A stretch of 53,079 nucleotides of DNA from Aequorivita sp. (GTDB lineage Bacteria > Bacteroidota > Bacteroidia > Flavobacteriales > Flavobacteriaceae), in the NCBI GenBank assembly GCA_026646335.1, contig JAPKFY010000006.1, positions 1-53,079 on the forward strand, written 5' to 3'. Positions within the stretch are counted from its first letter, which is position 1, and every line of letters begins with the position of its first letter. Shown here in pieces: positions 29,244-50,672 of this stretch. A program made the translations under genes and the position numbers. The notes beneath the pieces were generated by a model. The model was given only the letters and a program-made list of their open reading frames with translations, searched no databases and had not been told where the DNA came from.

Positions 29244-30176
29244 ATGGTTGATGTAACATTTAAAACCTCCACCCTTCGCGAAGCAACGGCAACCGCTGTT
29301 GTGAAAGTGGGCAGGAAGGAAACCATTGAAGCGGTAAAAAACAAAACCGTTCCCAAGGGCGATGTGCTTGAATGTGCGCGCACAGCGGGACTTTTCGCGG
29401 TAAAACGCACTAGCGACATGATTCCCGATTGCCACCCGATGCCGGTTGAGTTTACGCAGATACGCTATGAGCTTTCGGAAATAGAAATTAAAATTGAAGT
29501 GGAAGTTCACACCGTTTATAAAACAGGCGTTGAAGTGGAAGCAATGCACGGGGCTTCCGTGGTGGCACTGACCATTTATGATATGCTGAAGCCCATTGAC
29601 AAAGAAATTGAAATTTCTTCCATCAAACTTCAAGGGAAGAAGGGCGGCAAGTCTGATTTTTCGGATAAATTCAGAAAAAATCTGAAAGCGGTCGTGATTG
29701 TTTGTTCGGACAGTATTTCAGCAGGCAAGAAAGAAGACTATTCGGGAAAGGTCGTTGTCAAAAAATTGGAATCTTGTGGGGTAATCATTTCCGAATATTC
29801 AATTGTTCCCGATGAGATTGAAATCATCCGGGAAAAAATTGAAACACTTTACACAAAGAATGATCTTATCATTTTTACCGGCGGAACGGGGCTCTCCCCG
29901 AGAGACACTACCCCAGAGGCAATTCTCCCTTTGCTGGATAGGGAAATTCCAGGTATTATGGAAGCTGCCAGAAATTATGGGCAGGACAGGACTCCGTACG
30001 CCATGCTCTCGCGCGGGATTGCCGGAATGAAAGAAAATTGCTTGGTGCTTGCCATACCTGGTTCCACCAAAGGCGCAAAAGAAACGATGGACGCGCTTTT
30101 CCCTTCGGTGCTCCATATTTTCAGGATAGTGGAAGGGGCAAGGCACGACACCTCCGCCTTCGGCACCTCCCCTTGA
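29244..30176 (+). CDS. moaCB: Bifunctional MoaC-MogA/MoaB fusion (cPMP synthase plus molybdopterin adenylyltransferase)
   Basis: N-terminal Moa[30 protein letters not shown]...[20 protein letters not shown]-terminal MogA/Moa[20 protein letters not shown]. Confidence 0.92.
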
Positions 30177-31297: not shown

Positions 31298-32425
31298 TCA
31301 CTTATCTATCATTGCTTTTAATTGATTGAAGTCAAAATTTTTCTCAAAGCTGTCCTTCAAGGAAACCGTTGGGGTATACTCCGCTAAATAGTCCCACCAA
31401 ACTAGAATAAATTGAGCGGCATCAACGGGCAATGATTTTTTGAAGTAGTTTTCATTCTTTACAACAACTTTATAATACCCGTCCTTTTCACTGCCAAAAC
31501 CACGGTGACTCCCTTCTGCAATTGGAATGGCTGTTTTTTGCAACTCCGTTTCAGGAGTATTGGCAAGATAGTTGTCTATGTCAACTAATACTGGAGGCTC
31601 TTGTTTGGTAAAGTTTTCCATATTTTCTTTTGACTGTCTTCTGATTTCTGGTAATTGAGCATTAAGTTCTTTCAAAATCATATCCCGCATCTCGCCAGTA
31701 TATTCTTTTTTAGCATCCTCAATCATTTTGAGAAGTTCTTTTTCTGCATTACTGATTAACCCTTTGGTTTTTTCAAGTTCCTTTTGCCAATAATTACGGA
31801 TAATTTGAAGATATTCCCGTTGGCTTAGCTCCCTGTATGGTTTTTGATTATCGTGGGTTAGCAAAACGGCATATGCATGTTCCTTTCCAAAAGCGTCATA
31901 AAGGGGCATATCTTTAAAATTACCAAGTTGATGGGCCAAACGAAATAATTTTACAGGTTTGCCTTCATATTCAAAGGCCTCGCCATAAGACTGCATAATG
32001 GACATGCCATGATTAATAAAAATATCGACCCCGGTATCGGTAAGATAAGCTTTATCGGTTATCAGTTTATTTCCATTCTCTTTGTTACACCAAAAGGGAA
32101 ACAAAGTCATCGAAAATGTATATGCAGCAACTCCTTTTGGCGCATATTCACTGTACTCATCCAGATATCCAACACCATTATTAATTACATAACCACCTAT
32201 GCCAACAGGATAAAAATCAAGAAACAATTTCTTGATGGTTTCCCCCTTTTTCAAAATTGCGGCCTGTGTATTGGGTGGGGATGAGATTTCTGGAACAACT
32301 GGTTTTGATTTTAAATATTCCCAGTTGTTTTTTAAAGACATGATGTGTTCATCATTACATGTTTGGGCAAAAATTCCTGAAAGCCCCAACAAAGCAAATG
32401 CCTGAATTAAGACCTGTTTTTTCAT
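31298..32425 (-). CDS. Secreted protein of unknown function
   Basis: 375 aa, signal peptide MKKQVLIQAFALLGLSGIFAQ; 6 nt from upstream gene (operon). Confidence 0.75.
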   Translation of the reverse strand: MKKQVLIQAFALLGLSGIFAQTCNDEHIMSLKNNWEYLKSKPVVPEISSPPNTQAAILKKGETIKKLFLDFYPVGIGGYVINNGVGYLDEYSEYAPKGVAAYTFSMTLFPFWCNKENGNKLITDKAYLTDTGVDIFINHGMSIMQSYGEAFEYEGKPVKLFRLAHQLGNFKDMPLYDAFGKEHAYAVLLTHDNQKPYRELSQREYLQIIRNYWQKELEKTKGLISNAEKELLKMIEDAKKEYTGEMRDMILKELNAQLPEIRRQSKENMENFTKQEPPVLVDIDNYLANTPETELQKTAIPIAEGSHRGFGSEKDGYYKVVVKNENYFKKSLPVDAAQFILVWWDYLAEYTPTVSLKDSFEKNFDFNQLKAMIDK

Positions 32426-32431
32426 AATTTT

Positions 32432-33361
32432 TCATTCTTTACAATATTCCCTTTCACTCTGTTCCCCTATGATCATAATATACAGACAGGCCTTAGCTGT
32501 GTATTGATTGGGGCGGATAACCCACTGATGGGTCTCAGCCGCAGGTTTAGAATGTTCATCGGTTACCAATTGCCCATACTCCCATTTTCGATAGTGCCTG
32601 TCAGTTGGGGTCAATGTAATGCTGTTTCCAGAAATTGTATAAGTACCAATAGTATAAATGGAAATCTTATAGGTGGGTCTCGACGATGTTGCCAAAAAAG
32701 ACTGCGAATAGCTTCCGTCGGCTTTAAATTCATATCCACCGCCTTTACTTAAGCCAGAGCCTATCATATTGCCGGTGGCATCATCATAATAGTTTATCTT
32801 GCTCCCTGTTAGGTTTCCCCAACTGCCTAGGATATCCAAGGAACTACTAGAGGCTAAGGAAGCATCATTTTGTTGTGGATTATTCTTAACTTCTTTCTCC
32901 ATCGTATTTAAGTTAATCACAGATAAATCCTTTATTTTTCCAATATAAAGACTTGCCTCCTTTTTCCCAGGGAAAATGTACATCAACAAGTTTTGGCCAT
33001 CCTTGCTCAGGTATAAATAGGAATGATCTCTTACCGAAGTTTGCAATTTCCATCCGCTTGAATCCAAATTTTGAATGACGCAAAAAAGCCATGCCTCTGC
33101 ATCGCTTTTTTGTTTGGTTTTATTTTGCCAAGAGAATACTTCCAATTCCGAAATGGTTCCAATACCAGATTCCAGTTCTAAGGTGGTTTTGGCCACATCT
33201 ACAAAAAAACTACGTTCGTCTTTTAGAACTTCAGTGGAAAACGCAAGGTCTGTGAGCTCAGAATATCGGGTAGGTACAACACTCTTTTGAGCTATTAAGC
33301 CCATACTTCCCATCTGATAAAAAAGAAAGATGACTATCGATATATTAATAAGTGTTCGCAT
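32432..33361 (-). CDS. Secreted protein of unknown function (lipocalin-like C-terminal region)
   Basis: 309 aa, signal peptide; LGSWGNLTGSKINYYDDATGNMIGSGLSKGGGYEFKADGSYSQSF...GTYTISGNSITLTP. Confidence 0.7.
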   Translation of the reverse strand: MRTLINISIVIFLFYQMGSMGLIAQKSVVPTRYSELTDLAFSTEVLKDERSFFVDVAKTTLELESGIGTISELEVFSWQNKTKQKSDAEAWLFCVIQNLDSSGWKLQTSVRDHSYLYLSKDGQNLLMYIFPGKKEASLYIGKIKDLSVINLNTMEKEVKNNPQQNDASLASSSSLDILGSWGNLTGSKINYYDDATGNMIGSGLSKGGGYEFKADGSYSQSFLATSSRPTYKISIYTIGTYTISGNSITLTPTDRHYRKWEYGQLVTDEHSKPAAETHQWVIRPNQYTAKACLYIMIIGEQSEREYCKE

Positions 33362-33442
33362 TTAAAGATTTATTTAAGAAATTGACTAAAAGGATATTTT
33401 TAATTTGCCTGCTTAACTTATATTGAACCATTTAACTCAGTA

Positions 33443-34390
33443 TTATTGCTTTGCAAGATTCCATTTTATCCTAACATTGCCACATGTTCCTTCCCCCCAT
33501 ATTTTTCTATAATCAATGTCGCTACTTGAATTCTTATTTTCATCACAAGTGGTAAGGATCGAAAAAACTGCATTGGGAATAGTAATCCCATTACAACTTA
33601 CATCGAAGGGATCTGTAAAAAAGCTAATTCCATGGGTGTTCCCACCTACCATAATTTGATCTTCCTCTTCTGTCCAAAGACTTAATTCACCATGTAACGG
33701 CAAAACACCAGTTACCGCTGTACAATCTTTGGCATCGTAAGAATAACCCAATGACCCTCCAATTGAAGTAAAACTGTCTGAATTCTGGCCACTTTCCTTG
33801 AATAGGATATCTCCAAAGGCACGATATTTAAAATCTGGGGTACTACATACTATTTCCACTGTCCCATAATAGACGCGTAAATCATCCAAAATGGTAATCA
33901 TAGCAACCACTATCGTTTTACCTTGGCCATCGGTTTGAATTTCTGCACTTACCTGGATTGTTTCGTCTGAAGGTTTAACTGAGGGGGCGGTATACGTGGC
34001 CGTATTGATATCATTGGCTACTATTTTCCCTACTCTGTCGTTTCCGCCTTCGATACCGTTTACACTCCATTTTGATACTTTGAGAATTGGCAATAGAGGT
34101 GCTAATTCCACGTTAGGATCACATTCAAAAAGAAAGCCAGCAATAGCACCATCATCCCCCGTCAAGCTAGGCCAGAAACAATATCTCACTTTTAAAAGTT
34201 GCGATTGACGTACTTTAAGAACCGTATATGGAGGCCTTATTTGAAGGCCCTTAAGAGGAGAAGGATCTTTATAAGCCTTTTCTTCCCCAGCATCCGATTT
34301 ATTTTTGTTTGCAAGCTTGTCTTGTGCAGATCCATTCTGTACCCCGTGCATAAAGAATAGAATCGATAAATACCATAAATAGTTTTTCAT
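33443..34390 (-). CDS. Secreted protein of unknown function
   Basis: 315 aa, signal peptide MKNYLWYLSILFFMHGVQNGSAQ; no recognised domain. Confidence 0.72.
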   Translation of the reverse strand: MKNYLWYLSILFFMHGVQNGSAQDKLANKNKSDAGEEKAYKDPSPLKGLQIRPPYTVLKVRQSQLLKVRYCFWPSLTGDDGAIAGFLFECDPNVELAPLLPILKVSKWSVNGIEGGNDRVGKIVANDINTATYTAPSVKPSDETIQVSAEIQTDGQGKTIVVAMITILDDLRVYYGTVEIVCSTPDFKYRAFGDILFKESGQNSDSFTSIGGSLGYSYDAKDCTAVTGVLPLHGELSLWTEEEDQIMVGGNTHGISFFTDPFDVSCNGITIPNAVFSILTTCDENKNSSSDIDYRKIWGEGTCGNVRIKWNLAKQ

Positions 34391-34409
34391 AACGTGTTGA
34401 TTTTAATTT

Positions 34410-34456
34410 TAAAAGTAGTTGTTATGACAAATCCGTAATTCCCCTTTTAAGGGGAT
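34410..34456 (-). promoter_or_regulatory. Putative promoter with upstream palindrome TCCCCTTAAAAGGGGA, 23 nt, then TACTTTT -7-like box
   Basis: Minus-strand read: TCCCCTTAAAAGGGGA...aattacggatTTGtcataacaacTACTTTTA; same arrangement as at 37093-37138. Confidence 0.55.
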
Positions 34457-34461
34457 TTTTC

Positions 34462-35091
34462 TTAATTATCGACGGACAATAAGTTTTGTTCTATTGCCAA
34501 TTTGACCATACCCGCAGAGTTATGGGCACCAATTTTTAAGAGCAGGTTTTTGCGATGGGTGACTACAGTGGAGGTACTCAAAAATAACCTGTCAGCAATG
34601 TCAGTATTGGTAAGTCCGTCCGCAATAAGTTTTAATACCTCCTTTTCCCTTCTGGTAAGTACCGGCACAGGTATTTCACTTTTGTATTTTAGCAATTGGG
34701 CGGCTTCCCTGCTCAGATAAGTGCCCCCTTGTTCAACGATCTGCAAAGCACCTATAATTTCCTCTTTTGTGGCATTTTTTAACATATATCCCGAAGCTCC
34801 GCTCTCCAACATTTTATTAATAAAACTTTTTTGATTGAAGGTACTGAGCCCAATAATTTTTATTGAAGGGTATTTCTCTTTTACCTCCTTACAAAGGTCT
34901 ATCCCACTTTTGTCGGGCAGGTTGATGTCCATTAAAATAATGTCGGGTTCCTGCACGCATAATTCCGCAAGACAGAATGCCGCATTTTTTGCGTTACCGC
35001 TCCATATTATGGACTCTTCGTGTTGCAACAACGACTTTATTCCTTCAACGACCATATAATGGTCATCTACGATAAACAGTTTAATATTCAT
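34462..35091 (-). CDS. LuxR/NarL-type response regulator
   Basis: REC: LFIVDDHYMVVEGIKSLL, PDIILMDINLPDKSG; HTH: VLTRREKEVLKLIADGLTNTDIADRLFLSTSTVVTHRKNLLLKIG. Confidence 0.93.
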   Translation of the reverse strand: MNIKLFIVDDHYMVVEGIKSLLQHEESIIWSGNAKNAAFCLAELCVQEPDIILMDINLPDKSGIDLCKEVKEKYPSIKIIGLSTFNQKSFINKMLESGASGYMLKNATKEEIIGALQIVEQGGTYLSREAAQLLKYKSEIPVPVLTRREKEVLKLIADGLTNTDIADRLFLSTSTVVTHRKNLLLKIGAHNSAGMVKLAIEQNLLSVDN

Positions 35092-37046
35092 AATTCAAAG
35101 GTTAGTTGTACCGAGGTCCCGTTTTCGGGTATTGATTGTAAATCGAGCTTTCCTTTAAGAAAATTAATCCGGGTATAAATATTGCTCCAACCTATCCCCT
35201 TATTATTCTCGATTGATTTTGGGTCAAAGCCAATTCCATCGTCCTCAACGGTCAATGAGAGATTGTCTTCGTTTTTGATCAATTGCACAATAACAGATTT
35301 GGCCTGTGCGTGTTTTAATGAATTATACACCAACTCTTGCACAATTCTATAAATATTGATCGCTTTTGATTGTTCAATGGTATAATCCTTCATGCCGATG
35401 GATTGGTAGGTTACATGTGTATTCCCTGTCTGGTTTATATTGGAACAAAAGTCCTCCAGTGCGGTGTCCAGCCCGAACTTCACCAATGTTTCAGGCATCA
35501 TATTATGTGCTATACGCCTAATTTCATCAATAGAGGTATCTAGCATTTTCATGCCCTTTTCAAACTCATTCTCATTCTCTTTTGGAATGGTTAAGTTGCC
35601 TTTCATATTCTGAAACGAAAACTTTATCCCCGATAAAAGCCCTCCCAGACCATCGTGCAAATCCTTGGCCACGCGCACCCTTTCTTTTTCTTCGCCCGTC
35701 AACACCGCCTCGGTAGCCATCAACTGTTGCTGAATCTCCAGTTCGGTTATCCGCTTTTGTCTTAAAATCAATTTTTGTTTATAATTTTTCACGAAGAGCA
35801 CCACTAATAAAATCAAAATGCAGACCAGTGATAATAACACTATATTCAAAATGTTCTTATTGGCAATTTTTAGTTGTTGATGTTGTGATTTGCTCTCCAA
35901 TAATGCTATTTTTTCTTCCTTGAGTTCATTTTCATATTTTTTCTCAAGTTCTATTATTTTGTGCTGTAGGTTTTCATTCAATACTTGTTCGGATAGGGTA
36001 TTCTCTTGCTCTTTGTACCGCATATATTCTCTAATATTGCCTAATGCAAGGGAGGTGTTTGACAAAATGCCCAAACTGGTCAATTGTTCCCTTTTCATAT
36101 CGTTCTCACGAAATATATCATTGGACAAGGCCGCAAGTTCGTTTGCCTTTTTCAGTTCGTTTCTATATAATGCAACCGTTGATAGTTGGCTTATGGCAAT
36201 CCCTTCGCTTTGAACATCGCCCAACTCCACGGCCAGTTTTCTCGCTTCTAGGGCGTGTTGTTCCATAGCATCAAATAGCAGTTTTTTCTCCCAGGCTTGG
36301 GCAAAATTCAGGTGGATGGAAACTTCAAGATATTTATTGTCCGTTTTTCTGCTTATTAACAAGGCTTCATCCAGCACTTTAATAGCTTTACTGGGTTGGT
36401 TCAGCGCAATATAACTGATGGATATATTGTTCAATGCGTTGCTTAGGTCGAAATCCAGATTGTTTTTTCTGGATAATTCAATTGCTTCTTCGCCAAGTTC
36501 GATCGCCTTATCAAAGCGTTTCAATTTTTGATATACGGTCTGTAAAATATCGGAGGCCCTAGCAGTTAACACATCGTTATTCAATTTTTCAAAAATTCTT
36601 TTTCCCCTTAAATAATAGGATACTGCCGATTCATAATTATTTAGCAATTGATAAGAAGTACCTGTGTTGAACAGACATTTTGCAAGGGCCAATGAATCGC
36701 CGATTTCCTTGGAAACGTTTATGGATTTAAGGTTTAGCTCAAGGGAAGCGTCATAATCCCCCTGCATATTCAATATATAACCATAATTGGAGATATATTT
36801 TAAGGTGCCTCTTTTGTAGTTTAACTCTTCACTAAGTGCCCCTGCTTCTTCATAGTATTTTTTTGCGTCTTCTGGATTAGAACCTTCATACTGCTGCCCA
36901 ATATTTATAAGCAACAGCACCCTTGTGGTATCCATATCGGACTTGTTATACAGCATCAGCAAACTATCCAAATTCATTACTGTTTGGGCACTCACTTTGC
37001 CAAGTATCAAAAGCATTGGAATTAGGAAGAAAGTGTATTTCATCAA
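35088..37046 (-). CDS. TPR-containing sensor histidine kinase (HisKA_3 type)
   Basis: Signal peptide, TPR array, TM segment, KDLHDGLGGLLSGIKFSF phospho-acceptor, HATPase ...SLTVEDDGIGFDPKS...GIGWSNIYTRI; overlaps response regulator. Confidence 0.92.
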   Translation of the reverse strand: MMKYTFFLIPMLLILGKVSAQTVMNLDSLLMLYNKSDMDTTRVLLLINIGQQYEGSNPEDAKKYYEEAGALSEELNYKRGTLKYISNYGYILNMQGDYDASLELNLKSINVSKEIGDSLALAKCLFNTGTSYQLLNNYESAVSYYLRGKRIFEKLNNDVLTARASDILQTVYQKLKRFDKAIELGEEAIELSRKNNLDFDLSNALNNISISYIALNQPSKAIKVLDEALLISRKTDNKYLEVSIHLNFAQAWEKKLLFDAMEQHALEARKLAVELGDVQSEGIAISQLSTVALYRNELKKANELAALSNDIFRENDMKREQLTSLGILSNTSLALGNIREYMRYKEQENTLSEQVLNENLQHKIIELEKKYENELKEEKIALLESKSQHQQLKIANKNILNIVLLSLVCILILLVVLFVKNYKQKLILRQKRITELEIQQQLMATEAVLTGEEKERVRVAKDLHDGLGGLLSGIKFSFQNMKGNLTIPKENENEFEKGMKMLDTSIDEIRRIAHNMMPETLVKFGLDTALEDFCSNINQTGNTHVTYQSIGMKDYTIEQSKAINIYRIVQELVYNSLKHAQAKSVIVQLIKNEDNLSLTVEDDGIGFDPKSIENNKGIGWSNIYTRINFLKGKLDLQSIPENGTSVQLTFEL

Positions 37047-37091
37047 AAGAGAATTTGCCTACTCTAATTTACTTAATATAAGAGCATTAAT

Positions 37092-37138
37092 ATCCCCTTT
37101 TCAGGGGATTTTTTTCTTGAATACCAATGATACTTTTG
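37092..37138 (+). promoter_or_regulatory. Putative promoter with upstream palindrome TCCCCTTTTCAGGGGA, 23 nt, then TACTTTTG -7 box
   Basis: TCCCCTTTTCAGGGGA at 37093-37108; TACTTTTG at 37131-37138 matches the Bacteroidota TAnnTTTG element. Confidence 0.6.
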
Positions 37139-37166
37139 TTTGTATAAATCCAAAATTCTTTCAATC

Positions 37167-38450
37167 ATGAAAACAGTTATATATATTTTGTCAATTGTGT
37201 TCTTTTTATTGGCACCCAGCAATCTTTCGGCTCAGCTTTTAAAAAAAATGAAGGATAAGGTTGAAAGTAAAATCGAAAAAAAGCTTGATGGGAACCTAGA
37301 AAAAAAGGATGACGGACAACCGGAAAACGATGAACCAAGCGTAGCGCAAAACGAAAACGGAACTGAAACGGGTAATCCAAAGACTAAGGCAAATACAAGC
37401 TACACTTCAAAATTTGATTTTATACCTGGAGAAAAGCTGATTATTTCGGATGATTTTAGTGAGGATGCAGTTGGAGATTTCCCCGCACTATGGTTTACTA
37501 ATGGTTCAGGAGAAGTAGTGACCATCGACGGTTTGGACGGGAAATGGTTGATGATTAAAGGAAGATCACAAGCTTTCATCGACCGCTTACTGGAATTACC
37601 AGACAACTTTACCGTTCAGTTTGACCTCTTGTGTTCTGTGCCGTTTTCGTGGTCCTCAGATGTTTTTAATTTATATATGGAAGATGTCATAGATCTGGCT
37701 AGATACAGAGAAGGAAACAATGGTGGTGAGATGTCATCAAGAAATATTAATTATCATTTTTGGCTGGATTTACATCCCGGTTTGCTTAATCCCGGATCCT
37801 ATACTACGAAAGGATACGGTCATTACCGATTAAATAAGGTAAGTGCAAAACTTGAACTGAATGAAATATGGATGCCAAGTGCCGAAAAGAGTCTGCTTAA
37901 AGTATCTATCTGGAGACAAGGGCAAAGGTTGCGTTTATATTTAAACGAAAACAAGATTCTTGATCTGCCAAAATTATTGCCCGAGGACATGAACCCAAAT
38001 TTATTTGTATTCGAACCGTATAGCCTGGGGGATGGAGACCACTATTTTATTGGGAACCTGCGTATTGCCGTAGGCAACCCGGATACCCGTAATAAACTTT
38101 TAAATGAAGGCAAATTGGTCACAAATGGCATATTGTTCAATGTAAACTCTGATAGAATAAAACCTGAATCTTATGGTGTTTTGAAAGAAATAGCCGGGAT
38201 TTTAAAAGAAAGTGGCAACATAAAAGTAATGATAGTAGGACATACAGATAGTGATGGCGATGAAAATAAAAACATGGAATTATCTGAAAAAAGAGCTAAA
38301 TCTGTTAAAGATGCCTTGGTTACCGACTTTGGTGTAAAAGCTGAAAATTTGGAAACAAGTGGCAAAGGAGAAACTGAACCGTTAGTGCCCAATAGCGATA
38401 ATTTAGGCAAAGCCCAAAACCGAAGGGTTGAATTTACACTATTGAAATAA
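37167..38450 (+). CDS. OmpA-family protein
   Basis: Signal peptide; C-terminal OmpA domain NSDRIKPESYGVLKEIAGILKE...VGHTDSDGDENKNMELSEKRAKSVKDAL...GKGETEPL...NRRVEF; start taken at ATG 37167. Confidence 0.9.
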   Translation: MKTVIYILSIVFFLLAPSNLSAQLLKKMKDKVESKIEKKLDGNLEKKDDGQPENDEPSVAQNENGTETGNPKTKANTSYTSKFDFIPGEKLIISDDFSEDAVGDFPALWFTNGSGEVVTIDGLDGKWLMIKGRSQAFIDRLLELPDNFTVQFDLLCSVPFSWSSDVFNLYMEDVIDLARYREGNNGGEMSSRNINYHFWLDLHPGLLNPGSYTTKGYGHYRLNKVSAKLELNEIWMPSAEKSLLKVSIWRQGQRLRLYLNENKILDLPKLLPEDMNPNLFVFEPYSLGDGDHYFIGNLRIAVGNPDTRNKLLNEGKLVTNGILFNVNSDRIKPESYGVLKEIAGILKESGNIKVMIVGHTDSDGDENKNMELSEKRAKSVKDALVTDFGVKAENLETSGKGETEPLVPNSDNLGKAQNRRVEFTLLK

Positions 38451-38972: not shown

Positions 38973-39998
38973 TCAGCCACCTATGTTCACCATACTCCGA
39001 TTCTTTTGATTTTGGGAAGAATCCGAAAAATCCTTAAACGAATCCATTCCGCCCCGCATGGCTTTTTTGTTCCAAATCGATTCTAAGATCTTGGGAATAA
39101 TATCTTCCCCCTTTCTCATTGCCGAAAGCAGGTCAGTCTCGGTTCCGGAGAACAGGCAGTTTTTTATTTTTCCGTCTGCCGTGAGGCGAATTCGGTTGCA
39201 AGTGTCGCAGAAAGGATTTGTAACGGAGCTGATGACGGCAAAAGTTCCCAGATGGTCCTTCACTGCATAATTTTTTGCGGTATCGTTCACGGCATCCTTC
39301 AATTTCAGAATATCATCTCCGTATTTCTTCTCGATTTTTGTGATAATTTCCATAAAGGAAACGCCTTTGCTCCAGTCCCATTTGTTTCCTGTGAAAGGCA
39401 TAAACTCGATAAAACGTATATGTACATTTTTATCGCGGGTCCAGGCGACAAAATCGCAAATTTCGTCGTCGTTCACCCCTTTAATTATCACTGCGTTTAT
39501 CTTGACGTGGAATTTTTCCTTTAACAAAAGATCGATATTTGAGATTACTTTATCAAAATAATCCCTGCGGACAATGGAATTGAATTTTTCTTTCTTGAGA
39601 GAATCCAGGCTTAGATTGATGGATTTTAGTCCGTTGGATTTTAGGGTGGCTATATAATCATCCACTAAAATTCCGTTTGTGGTGATTGCAAGCTCGATGG
39701 GAAGCTGGGACAGTTTCGTAATAATTTCTTTTGCGTCCTTTCGCACCAAGGGCTCACCACCCGTAAGGCGGATTTTCTTCACCCCGAGGGAAACAAATAT
39801 CCTTGCCATTTCCATCACTTCCTCGGCTGTCATAAACTCGGAACGTGGCCTAAGCTGGATCCCTTCCTCGGGCATACAGTAAAAACAGCGAAGGTTGCAC
39901 CGCTCCGTCAATGAAATGCGCAGGTAATCGTGGACTCGGTTAAACTGGTCGGTGATCAGTGATCGGTTATCGGTGCTTGACTTGTCCATTTTGTTCAA
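38973..39998 (-). CDS. moaA: GTP 3',8-cyclase
   Basis: Radical SAM CNLRCFYC; GGEPLVRKD; C-terminal CDTCNRIRLTADGKIKNCLF; C-terminal GG. Confidence 0.96.
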   Translation of the reverse strand: MNKMDKSSTDNRSLITDQFNRVHDYLRISLTERCNLRCFYCMPEEGIQLRPRSEFMTAEEVMEMARIFVSLGVKKIRLTGGEPLVRKDAKEIITKLSQLPIELAITTNGILVDDYIATLKSNGLKSINLSLDSLKKEKFNSIVRRDYFDKVISNIDLLLKEKFHVKINAVIIKGVNDDEICDFVAWTRDKNVHIRFIEFMPFTGNKWDWSKGVSFMEIITKIEKKYGDDILKLKDAVNDTAKNYAVKDHLGTFAVISSVTNPFCDTCNRIRLTADGKIKNCLFSGTETDLLSAMRKGEDIIPKILESIWNKKAMRGGMDSFKDFSDSSQNQKNRSMVNIGG

Positions 39999-45529: not shown

Positions 45530-47023
45530 TTACCAGCCTCTTTTAGGTGTTTCCTTAAACCCAAACCCGGTTGAACCTTTCACATCGGCCGTGCTTTCCA
45601 GCATTTCGATTGATTCTTCCCTGTGCGCGGGCGGAATTACAAACCGTTCGTCAAAAGTTGCCAAGGATGTCAATCTGAAAATAGCGTCGGCTGTGTCTGC
45701 AGCCATTTTCACTTCACCCATGGCCATGTCAACTATTCCCTGCTCCACATCGCCAACGGTAGTCTGCCTTCTATGCCATCTTACGGCCATCAGGCGCTTG
45801 AGCACTTCAACAATTTTGTCGGTATTTCCTGCTGTAAAAAGATTGGCGAGGTATTTAATGGGCAGGCGATCGTTATTAATTCCCCCCCAAAGAAACTGAG
45901 TGTTCGATTCTTCGTACACTCCGTCCTTGACGGTTGCCATTCCCGGCATAAGTGCCGGCACATAGAATAAATTTGGCAGTGTCCTGAATTCAGGATGAAG
46001 TGGAAGTGCTATTTTCCATTCCTTCACAAATTTGTAAACAGGAGATTTTTGGGCGGCCTCAATGGTTGAATCGGCTATGCCATTTTTCCTTGCTTCCTTG
46101 ATAACTTCAGGGTCAAAGGGATCGAGATAGATACCTAATTGCGCATCCACCAATTCGTCTTCATTAACAGAAGCTGCTTCCTGAATCTTATCGGCATCAT
46201 AGAGCATAACCCCTAAGTATCGGATTCTTCCCACACACTGGTGCATACAGGCAGGTGCTTGGCCTGATTCCAAACGCGGGTAGCACAAAATACATTTCTC
46301 TGATTTTCCTGTGTGCCAGTTGTAATAGGATTTTTTATAGGGACAGGCGGTAACGCACATTCTCCAGGCTCGGCAAACCTGCTGATTGATTAGTACAACT
46401 CCGTCCTCTCCTCTTTTGTAGATAGCACCTGAAGGGCAGGAAGCTACACAGGCTGGGTTTAAACAATGGTTGCAGATTCTGGGCAGGTAAAAAAATGTCA
46501 TTCTTTCCAATTGGAACATAACTTCCTGTTCCGAAGCGCTGAGGTCTTTGAAGTTTACATCCTTACGGGCATAATCTGGTGAACCTCCCAAATCGTCATC
46601 CCAGTTTGGCCCTGCCTTAACATCCATGTGCTCTCCCGTAACAAGGGAAACAGGCCGTGCCGTTGGCTGATCATCACCTTCGGGGGCGGTGAATAAATCC
46701 TCATACTTATAGGTCCAAGGCTCGTAATAATCATCCAGCACGGGAAGATGCGGATTGTGAAATATATTTTTCAGACCCCTGAGCTTTCCCGCTCCCTTAA
46801 GCGATACGGAGTTTCCATTTTTCTCCCATCCTCCTTTGTATATTTCCTGGTCTTCCCATTTGGTGGGATAGCCGGTACCCGGCTTTGTTTCCACATTGTT
46901 CCACCACATATACTCTGCACCTTTCCTATCCGTCCAAACATTTTTGCAGGCGATGGAACAGGTATGGCACCCGATACATTTATCGAGATGAAAAACCATT
47001 GATACTTGTGACCTAATGTCCAT
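45530..47023 (-). CDS. narH: Respiratory nitrate reductase beta subunit
   Basis: FHLDKCIGCHTCSIACKNVW; CNHCLNPACVASCPSGAIYKRGEDG; CRAWRMCVTACPYKK; CILCYPRLESGQAPACMHQC. Confidence 0.97.
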   Translation of the reverse strand: MDIRSQVSMVFHLDKCIGCHTCSIACKNVWTDRKGAEYMWWNNVETKPGTGYPTKWEDQEIYKGGWEKNGNSVSLKGAGKLRGLKNIFHNPHLPVLDDYYEPWTYKYEDLFTAPEGDDQPTARPVSLVTGEHMDVKAGPNWDDDLGGSPDYARKDVNFKDLSASEQEVMFQLERMTFFYLPRICNHCLNPACVASCPSGAIYKRGEDGVVLINQQVCRAWRMCVTACPYKKSYYNWHTGKSEKCILCYPRLESGQAPACMHQCVGRIRYLGVMLYDADKIQEAASVNEDELVDAQLGIYLDPFDPEVIKEARKNGIADSTIEAAQKSPVYKFVKEWKIALPLHPEFRTLPNLFYVPALMPGMATVKDGVYEESNTQFLWGGINNDRLPIKYLANLFTAGNTDKIVEVLKRLMAVRWHRRQTTVGDVEQGIVDMAMGEVKMAADTADAIFRLTSLATFDERFVIPPAHREESIEMLESTADVKGSTGFGFKETPKRGW

Positions 47024-47042: not shown

Positions 47043-50000
47043 TTAGAATTCTACTTTGTTCATTTTCCTTACAAGCACGTGGGTATCGCGGTTTGCACCA
47101 ACAGGGCCCCAATAATTGAGGTGAAATGAAAACTGGGCATAGCCACCCACCATCAAACTTGGCTTTAAGTGCACGCGTGTGAAACTATTATGGCCACCGG
47201 CCCTTCTGCCCCCTCTTTCCTGTGATTTTGGGACCGAATAGGTCCTTTCGGGCGAGTGATAGACAATGCAAACCCCGTTGGGAATTCTGGAGCTTACGCA
47301 GGCACGTGTACAATAAACTCCGTGGTCGTTATAGACTTCAACCCAGTCATTGTCTTTTACTCCAATTGCTTCTGCATCTTCCTCGCTCATCCAGCAGGGC
47401 TCCATTCCCCTGGAAAGGGTAAGCATTCTAAGGGTATCCCCATAAGTGGAGTGGATATGCCATTTACCGTGTGGGGTTAAGCAATTGAGCATTTTTGCCT
47501 TCCCGTCATTCAAGGTTTTGCGGATGTCGCCGTAAACAGAGGGAAGCGGGGAAGGTTTATAGGTTGGAAGGTGCTCGCCAAAAGCGATATAGCCTTCATG
47601 ATCCAAATACATGGACTGTCTTCCCGTGAGTGTTCTCCAGGGAACAAGTCGATCCACATTATAGGTAAAAGCACAATAAGCCCTACCGTTGTTCATCAAG
47701 CCAGACCAGAGGGCAGCTGTGTTGTAGCGTCTCGGCTGTGACTGCAGGTCCTTGTAATCAACCCTCACATCTTTGCTTCCCGCGCCAAGATCAGCAAGAA
47801 CAAGTCCAGTTTTCTTTTCCATATTCTCATAAGCCCTAACATTCAGGTATCCATTGGTGAGAGTGGAAAGCGTGAGCACTGCATTTACAGCTTCAATATC
47901 CTCTTTCAAAGATGGATACTCCATGCCATTGATTTTTTGGACATGGCGCTTGTCCTGGTGCATTTCTTCATACACATCATCTGCCATAAAACTAACGCCG
48001 TGTGCCCCGATCGGTTTTGTCCTTATATTCGGGCCAAGGGTGATGTATTTATTGTATATCTGTGTATAATCGCGTTCTTCTATCACGATTTTGTGCATTG
48101 ATTTCCCAGGGACTGGTTCACATTCCCCTTTGTACCAATCCTTAATAGAAGGTTGCGAGATTTCATCTATTGAATCGTGTGAAAGTGGAAGGTTTACCGT
48201 GTCCATTATTGGATCGGGCATATAGGATTTAGCCAATTCACTTACTTTCTTAGCGATCAATTGAAAGATCTGCCAATCGCTTTTCGATTCCCACACAGGT
48301 GCAACTGCTGGAGAGAGGGGATGGATAAAGGAGTGCATATCGGTTGAATTGATATCTGCCTTTTCATACCAGGAGGCTGTTGGCAAAACAATATCCGAAT
48401 AGAGGGCAGAAGTATCCATCCGGAAATTGATATCGACTATCAAATCCATTTTTCCTTTTGGGGCTTCCCTCCAGATAATTTCTGAAACGTGTTCCTGTGC
48501 AACCTCATCGGCTATATCGTTATGGTGTGTGCCCAGATAATGGTTGAGCATGTACTCGTGCCCTTTGGCAGAGGACATCAGCGCATTGCCCCTCCAGATG
48601 AACCAGTTGCGCGGAAAATTTATTTCGTTGTCGCAATCGGCGATAGCGTAGTTCAGTTTTTTCGACTTCAACTGATCTACGATGTAATTTCGTATTTCCT
48701 CTTCAGTTTTTGCCCCGCTTTTTTGGGCATCGGCAACCACTTCGAAATTATTTTTATCGTACTGTGGATAGAAAGGCATCCATCCGTTTCTCACGGCCAT
48801 TACCGCCATATCTGCGGAATGCATATTTCCGTATTTACTGTTGTCGGGGATTGAATTGTATTGTGCCTGATTGGCATCGTACCGCCATTGGTCTGAATTG
48901 ATGTAATGCCAGATGGGGGCCTGCTGCATTCTAGTTGAACCCTGCCAGTCCTTTGCCGACATAATGGCGCCCCAGGAATCTACGGGAGCCAATTTTTCCT
49001 GGCCTACATAATGGTTCATTCCGCCACCGTTCACCCCATTGCAACCAGTGAACAACTGTGCCTGGATTGCTGCGCGGTACATTAGGTTTCCGTGGAACCA
49101 GTGATTGATACCCGCACCGGTAATGACCATGCATTTTCCTTTTGTTGTTTCCGCGGTGTCGGCCCACTCACGGGCAAACTTGATGACTGTATTTCTTCCA
49201 ATACCCGTGAAGATTTCGTTCCATGCAGGGGTATATGCCGCTTTTTCATCTTCATAATCTTTTGGGTAATCTCCCGCGAGGCCTCTTCCCACGCCGTAAT
49301 GCCCCATCATAATATCATAACTGGTTGCCACGGGAATTTTTTCTCCATCAATGGTTTCAATATATTTTACGGGAACTCCCCTTAGGGCTTTTTTCTTTAA
49401 CCCAAATTCTGTGTACTCTACTTGGAATACATCATCACTGTCATTTAGAAGCGTAAGTCGGGGGTCGTATTCTGAATTGTCCACGCCGTCCTCATAGAGT
49501 AAATTCCACTTGGCGATATTGTCTTTTTCTTTGTCCCAGCGTTGCCCCATACTTCCTTTTGGCATTACCGCTTTTCCGGTCTTGGAATCGAGATTCAGAA
49601 ATTTCCACTCTCCGTTTTCCACTCCTTTATATTTGGCTATTCTGTTTGCCCTTAGGAATTTTCCTGGCAAGTAATGATCTCCCTCTTTGATAAGCTCAAC
49701 GAGAAATGGACAGTCGGTATAGCGTTTCACGTATTCCATAAAATAGGGAACCTGTCTGTCAACGTGATATTCTTTAAGGATAACGTGGGTAACTGCCATC
49801 CAAAAGGCACCATCACTACCGGCATGAACTGGAATCCATTGATCAGCATGTTTTGCTACCATACTGAAGTCGGGCGACATTACCACGGTTTTGGTCCCAT
49901 TGTGTTTTGATTCGGAAAAAAAGTGGATGTCGGGGGTACGGGTCATTCCCAAGTTGGCGCCCATGGAAACACAGAACTTGGAATTGAACCAGTCCGCACT

Positions 50001-50672
50001 TTCGCACACATCGGTCTGTTCGCCCCATACTTCGGGAAAAGCTGGTGGCAGATCGCAATACCAATCATAGAAACTTAAACTCACGCCACCCATCAGTTGG
50101 AGATAACGTGTGCCCGAAGCGAAACTCAACATAGACATTGCGGGAATGGGAGAGAAGCCAACGATTCTGTCAGGGCCATATTTTTTTACAGTATAGAGAT
50201 TCGCCGCGGCAATCAGTTCAATTACTTCTTCCCAATTTGCCCTTCTGAACCCACCTTTTCCTCTGGCCCTTTGGTAGCGGGCACGGTTGGTGGGATTGCT
50301 CTGAAGGTATTCCCATGCTTTAATGGGATCGCCTCCTACGGCTTTTTTTGCTTCCTTGAACAGATCCATCAACGCACCTCTCATCAAAGGATATTTCACA
50401 CGGATTGGGCTGTAGAGATACCACGAATAGGAAATTCCCCGTTGGCAGCCACGGGGCTCGTATGGAGGAAGCCCTTCTTCGAGCAATGGATAGTCCAGAG
50501 CCTGTGTTTCCCAAACCACGATTCCGTCCTTCACATGGATATTCCAAGAGCATCCGCCCGTACAGTTTACACCGTGTGTGCTTCGCACCACTTTGTCATA
50601 TTGCCAGCGGTTGCGGTAGAACTCTTCCCACTTGCGGGTCTTCGGAGAAATAATGTCTTCAATCCAACTCAT
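47043..50672 (-). CDS. narG: Respiratory nitrate reductase alpha subunit
   Basis: [40 protein letters not shown]; no Tat signal peptide at N-terminus. Confidence 0.97.

Follow-up and report, generated by a model that had tools for sequence, protein, structure and literature searches.

Two promoters on either side of a kinase/regulator operon

What is the function of two matching palindromes that lie on opposite sides of a single operon encoding a sensor kinase and a response regulator? The question is raised by a 53,079-nucleotide stretch of DNA from Aequorivita sp. (contig JAPKFY010000006.1), which was analyzed as a whole and is referred to as the window. The kinase/regulator operon, on the minus strand, lies between two promoters that each combine a palindrome with a -7 box. 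The locus consists of the following features.

31298..32425, minus strand: predicted secreted protein, 375 aa, close behind 32432-33361
32432..33361, minus strand: predicted secreted protein, 309 aa, 44% identical to the Muriicola gene L106:8469-9386
33443..34390, minus strand: predicted secreted protein, 315 aa, predicted target, without a Pfam match
34410..34417, minus strand: -7-like box TACTTTTA of the secreted-protein promoter
34440..34455, minus strand: predicted operator of the secreted-protein promoter, TCCCCTTAAAAGGGGA, a perfect 16-bp palindrome
34462..35091, minus strand: NarL/FixJ (LuxR-type) response regulator, 209 aa (Pfam Response_reg and GerE)
35088..37043, minus strand: TPR-containing sensor histidine kinase, 651 aa (Pfam TPR, HisKA_3 and HATPase_c)
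37093..37108, plus strand: predicted operator of the OmpA-family promoter, TCCCCTTTTCAGGGGA, a 16-bp 7-2-7 inverted repeat
37131..37138, plus strand: -7 box TACTTTTG of the OmpA-family gene, matching the Bacteroidota TAnnTTTG
37167..38450, plus strand: OmpA-family secreted/outer-membrane protein (Pfam), 427 aa, predicted target

The regulator consists of a receiver domain (Response_reg, E 1.1e-23) and a C-terminal GerE helix-turn-helix (E 4.4e-19). Its gene overlaps by 4 bp that of a HisKA_3 kinase, the kinase type that partners NarL/FixJ regulators. Both palindromes are made of inverted 7-bp half-sites that are 2 bp apart, TCCCCTT-TT-AAGGGGA at 34440 and TCCCCTT-TT-CAGGGGA at 37093. The copy at 34440-34455 sits between the regulator stop codon and the next gene (33443-34390). 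Its box, TACTTTTA, follows 22 nt after the palindrome and 19 nt ahead of the ATG at 34390. On the other side of the operon, TACTTTTG follows 22 nt after the palindrome and 28 nt ahead of the OmpA ATG. The latter box matches TAnnTTTG exactly, and TACTTTTA deviates from it at the last base. A first-pass annotation of this DNA had reported identical palindrome-to-box spacing in both promoters; a pattern search of the sequence bore this out, except that the distance is 22 nt and not the 23 nt given there. The same annotation pointed to a TTG 11 and 10 nt before the boxes. These trinucleotides are present, but orthologous promoters do not conserve them, and they do not belong to the shared signal. 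No TTG of a -33 TTTG box occurs 17-23 nt before the -7 box in either window promoter, and the window contains no Rfam match.

The secreted-protein gene 33443-34390 has no homologues among 59 relatives. The gene behind it, 32432-33361, is likely co-transcribed with it, and its Muriicola relative also lies near the same kinase/regulator pair. The third gene, 31298-32425, is close enough on the same strand to be assigned provisionally to the same operon as 32432-33361.

Rarity of the arrangement

Eight site matches with up to two mismatches were found in the window, compared to a mean of 1.3 in shuffled sequence. The genome assembly (3.05 Mb, 163 contigs, 94% complete) contains the palindromic CCCCTNNNNAGGGG at 13 places versus one in the reversed control. 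Most of the other places belong to an unrelated repeat type in which CCCCTTYRAAGGGG lies inside longer GC-rich repeats of the GGGAGGGGATGT type, and none of them has the same spacing and box. When the complete arrangement TCCCCTNNNNAGGGGA-N22-TANNTTTR was required with no mismatch, the two promoters reported in the first-pass annotation were the only genome matches; matches with three mismatches were about as frequent as in the control.

A dispersed repeat with the core CCCCTTYRAAGGGG and flanks such as GGGAGGGGATGT is found in this genome and in other members of the genus (L001-L005, L008, L010, L011, L013).

Conservation at orthologous loci

Homologues of the regulator inside the genus are all distant (up to 52% identity). 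True orthologues with 56-74% identity occur in the wider family, in hosts including Maribacter sp. MAG PFL5, Muriicola jejuensis and M. marianensis. At these loci in other genera, the site is present in the gap between the kinase and the divergent gene, and in three of them it is also present just 3' of the regulator gene. The same two positions and the same spacing as in the window recur in Maribacter, Muriicola and others, and the Maribacter MAG carries the arrangement with no mismatch. The same-genus regulator homologues G001 and G020 have a variant site, TCACCCTTTTACGTGA, and make a weaker case. OmpA homologues of the same genus are uninformative because they are neither beside such a pair nor preceded by the motif.

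While the promoter signal stays, the genes behind it vary. An OmpA orthologue with 54-61% identity (BLAST) lies beside the same kinase/regulator pair in L105, L106 and L107; at other orthologous loci the divergent gene encodes a different secreted protein. The gene 3' of the regulator encodes 723-728 aa in Muriicola and 315 aa here. Among the 48 predicted targets, the two in the window included, the Pfam domains point to exported proteins; examples are type IX secretion tails, YadA head, OmpA, and astacin-like and M48 peptidases.

A second copy of the site lies upstream in several orthologous promoters, at a start-to-start distance of 36-37 bp or 24-26 bp, as expected if two dimers bind. Tandem sites ~37 bp apart were seen in the kinase-upstream gaps of L113, L110, L108, L111 and L114. 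In several tandem pairs, also in Chitinophagaceae, the well-matching halves are the left one of the distal copy and the right one of the proximal copy (TCCCCTTTTTCCATGA ... TCCTGTTTTTAGGGGA).

Spacing between the site and the -7 box

The window and 12 orthologous loci supplied the 18 promoters on which the motif was defined. A box of the form [TG]ANNTTT[GA] was found in 18 of the 18, at an offset of 22 (10 promoters) or 23 (8 promoters), and nowhere else within offsets of 5 to 44. Shuffling gives a chance of 0.009 per site. Because the box definition had been chosen on these same promoters, the spacing was examined again at new loci. A scan of public genomes gave 80 orthologue loci, of which seven duplicated the first set. 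The remaining 73, mostly from Chitinophagaceae but also from Cyclobacteriaceae and Prolixibacteraceae, were searched with the site list and box unchanged.

The held-out loci contained 158 site matches versus 6 in the reversed control. Exact boxes occurred 5 times at offset 22 and 17 times at offset 23, with two or fewer at any other offset. When one mismatch was allowed, the numbers were 15 at 22 and 59 at 23, with 1-10 at any other offset. One held-out locus (L264) has a close counterpart in the training set and related species are represented, which means that these counts are not independent events. A fixed distance from operator to core promoter, here 22 or 23 nt, is a trait of class II activator promoters.

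Which regulator goes with the site?

The first-pass annotation had assigned the palindrome to the adjacent regulator, and the comparative counts support this assignment because the site follows one regulator subfamily. There were 160 oriented site matches in 48 of the 73 orthologue loci (654 kb) compared to 10 in 5 of 65 loci of other TPR-kinase/NarL pairs (391 kb). The remaining 25 orthologue loci had no site at the threshold used; some of these are cut by contig ends, and for others the cut-off may have been too stringent or the target may be located somewhere else. Across 400 genomes of the family, all seven matches to site, N22 and box with zero or one mismatch were at loci of a regulator orthologous to 34462-35091. 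In other words, the signal is not scattered over genomes apart from promoters, an outcome that would have spoken against the original proposal. At many of the held-out loci a site is also oriented towards the kinase gene, implying probable autoregulation in those relatives; in the window it does not.

Another line of evidence comes from regulators with the recognition helix TVEKHRKN. Their loci contain TACCC-N6-GGGTA palindromes instead, most of them at a distance of 23 nt from a -7-like box. There are several per locus (L190:772, 1276, 1440 and 4411; L192:762 and 3854; L200:1439 and 3580); nearly all of these copies lie 23 nt before -7-like boxes, and some face the kinase operon. The number of matches to the TACCC-N6-GGGTA matrix in its own loci is only descriptive since the matrix was trained on them, but it finds just 10 matches in the 654 kb of first-subfamily loci. 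The code is not a simple residue code, because the window regulator has VTHRKN in its recognition helix where nearly all orthologues have DTHRKN, and the site is unchanged. Other subfamilies were represented by 65 held-out loci, in which 5 and 7 palindromes had their centres 30 and 31 nt, respectively, ahead of intergenic -7 boxes. These are the two highest counts among 105 centre positions (mean 1.14, sd 1.23; the count of 5 is tied with one other). The counts, together with the split between the two palindromes, suggest that the geometry of the site is general and that its sequence seems to be subfamily-specific.

A model for promoter activation

The findings converge on a model, held here with high confidence, that the palindromes are operators of the NarL-type regulator, with 7-2-7 architecture and a centre near -42.5, and that they serve to activate the neighbouring secreted and outer-membrane protein genes. 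According to this model, a phosphorylated regulator dimer would bind the two inverted 7-bp half-sites. Transcriptome mapping in F. psychrophilum places TAnnTTTG at -12 to -5 (PMC9723704). If this box position applies, a 16-bp site 22 nt upstream is predicted to span about -50 to -35 with its centre at -42.5 (-43.5 for 23 nt), which would fall within the range of about -41.5 to -44.5 for class II operators. The centre of the dimer would then be ~42.5 bp ahead of the transcription start, the place at which an activator of the class II type contacts RNA polymerase, and the dimer could turn on promoters that possess a -7 box and lack a canonical -33 box. Its targets would be the flanking secreted and outer-membrane protein genes, so that the kinase/regulator pair and its payload would form a local module. 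Sequence comparison establishes the sites, their constant spacing, their conservation and their association with one regulator subfamily. DNA binding, phosphorylation, the start sites and activation rather than repression are what we infer from sequence, together with the sensing of a signal by the TPR kinase.

How does the proposed operator compare with known ones? The closest sequence relatives of the regulator in the PDB are VraR and DevR (5hev, 3c3w), and NarL is also among its PDB relatives. VraR and DevR share the receiver and GerE domains but come from other phyla and have other operators. The consensus of the NarL half-site is TACYYMT. The half-site TCCCCTT/AAGGGGA fits it at five of seven positions and differs at positions 2 and 6; the window sites have NarL-like geometry only and are not NarL sites. 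The geometry is that of E. coli ogt and yeaR, where a NarL/FixJ regulator with a HisKA_3 kinase likewise uses a 16-bp inverted repeat of 7-bp halves and a 2-bp gap, with the proximal site immediately ahead of the core promoter and tandem sites in some promoters (PMC7419079). NarL binds such 7-2-7 repeats and acts from positions -44.5 and -77.5 to activate ogt (PMC7419079). Differences from NarL are the kinase, which has TPR repeats and is not a NarX sensor, the Bacteroidota -7 box, and the predicted local regulon of neighbouring surface proteins. In class II activator promoters a weak core promoter adjoins an activator site at about -42, where the window operators are predicted to lie; the core promoter here is, in contrast, of the Bacteroidota sigma-A type (TAnnTTTG at -12 to -5), and activation is predicted.

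Alternative explanations

Could the palindromes be hairpins that act as intrinsic terminators or belong to a dispersed repeat, with no regulator bound to them? Among non-regulatory readings this is the strongest, since each copy is followed by a T-run on the plus strand and nearly the same 20-mer, CCCCTTTTNAGGGGATTTTT, follows a tRNA-Arg gene in two genomes of the same genus. Both copies look like terminators in that orientation and fold as hairpins, and other CCCC..GGGG repeats exist in the genome. In these two genomes (L044:1501-1520 and L045:1501-1520), CCCCTTTTTAGGGGATTTTT lies directly after the tRNA-like gene, where a terminator is expected, and apparently acts as one. The tRNA-Arg copy, however, follows its gene in terminator orientation, whereas the window copies precede promoters at a fixed distance from the -7 box. 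The T-runs are on the plus strand, but neither copy has a plus-strand gene ending ahead of it, and on the minus strand, at the end of the kinase/regulator operon, no T-run follows the 34440 stem. The T-run is also missing at most orthologous sites. A terminator or repeat would leave unexplained both the box distance of 22 or 23 nt (all 18 defining promoters and the peak in the held-out set) and the restriction to one regulator subfamily. Orientation, the disappearance of the T-run among orthologues and the constant distance to the promoter were the grounds for rejecting this reading, which we consider highly improbable. That the two window promoters are alike by chance has a negligible probability. 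The pair was picked after the fact in the first-pass annotation, but the mismatch-free repeat in the Maribacter MAG, the held-out peak at 22/23 nt and the 400-genome scan all contradict coincidence.

Two other alternatives accept that a protein binds the palindrome. It is very unlikely that this is a DNA-binding protein other than the adjacent response regulator. While binding by the adjacent regulator is a comparative prediction, the sites adjoin the same regulator across several Bacteroidota families, are seldom found next to other TPR/NarL pairs, and give way to TACCC..GGGTA where the regulator subfamily has another recognition helix. It is somewhat less far-fetched, though still unlikely, that the regulator binds and represses, its dimer covering the -33 region and blocking polymerase. 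The site does overlap the -33 position, and the sequence by itself is no proof of activation. However, a centre at -42.5 or -43.5 with exact spacing is typical of an activator that contacts RNA polymerase, repressor sites are not usually tied to one spacing, and the tandem upstream sites of some orthologous promoters resemble the NarL-activated ogt promoter. The lack of a canonical -33 box also argues against repression, but this evidence is weak because a -33 box could not be identified in F. johnsoniae, and its absence is not diagnostic in flavobacteria (PMC7366714).

Genomic neighbourhood

The module (31298-38450) lies inside a nitrate respiration and molybdenum cofactor cluster (24870-50672) that includes the following genes.

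29244-30176: moaC/moaB fusion
38973-39989: moaA
42062-43540: narK-like gene
45530-47023: narH
47043-50672: narG

Since orthologous modules elsewhere are not beside nar genes, the module 31298-38450 may be an insertion. A link between the kinase/regulator pair and nitrate respiration, which the nar and moa neighbours might suggest, was considered and set aside: the window has no further high-scoring noncoding site, and orthologous pairs lie in other neighbourhoods.

Implications for Bacteroidota signalling

TPR-kinase/LuxR pairs are abundant in Bacteroidota. The open-access papers searched describe neither this operator nor a DNA target for any such pair. NarL-type operators and activator sites near -42 are already known; the conservation seen here across the phylum is unusually clear. 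Within the literature searched, a widespread, little-studied signalling family gains its first predicted DNA target. For one widespread subfamily the comparison supplies an operator, a spacing and a list of targets, and for a second subfamily it supplies another operator. The assignment of regulator to target becomes directly testable with small promoter fusions, and the arrangement offers a candidate design for regulated promoters in flavobacteria. A broader idea, which we regard as a serious possibility that falls a little short of probable, is that Bacteroidota TPR-kinase/NarL pairs share one promoter grammar. Each subfamily would have a 16-bp palindrome set by its recognition helix and placed 22-23 nt from the -7 box, and a constant promoter would drive an exchangeable local payload of secreted and outer-membrane proteins. 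If this is true, the targets and operators of such systems would be readable from sequence.
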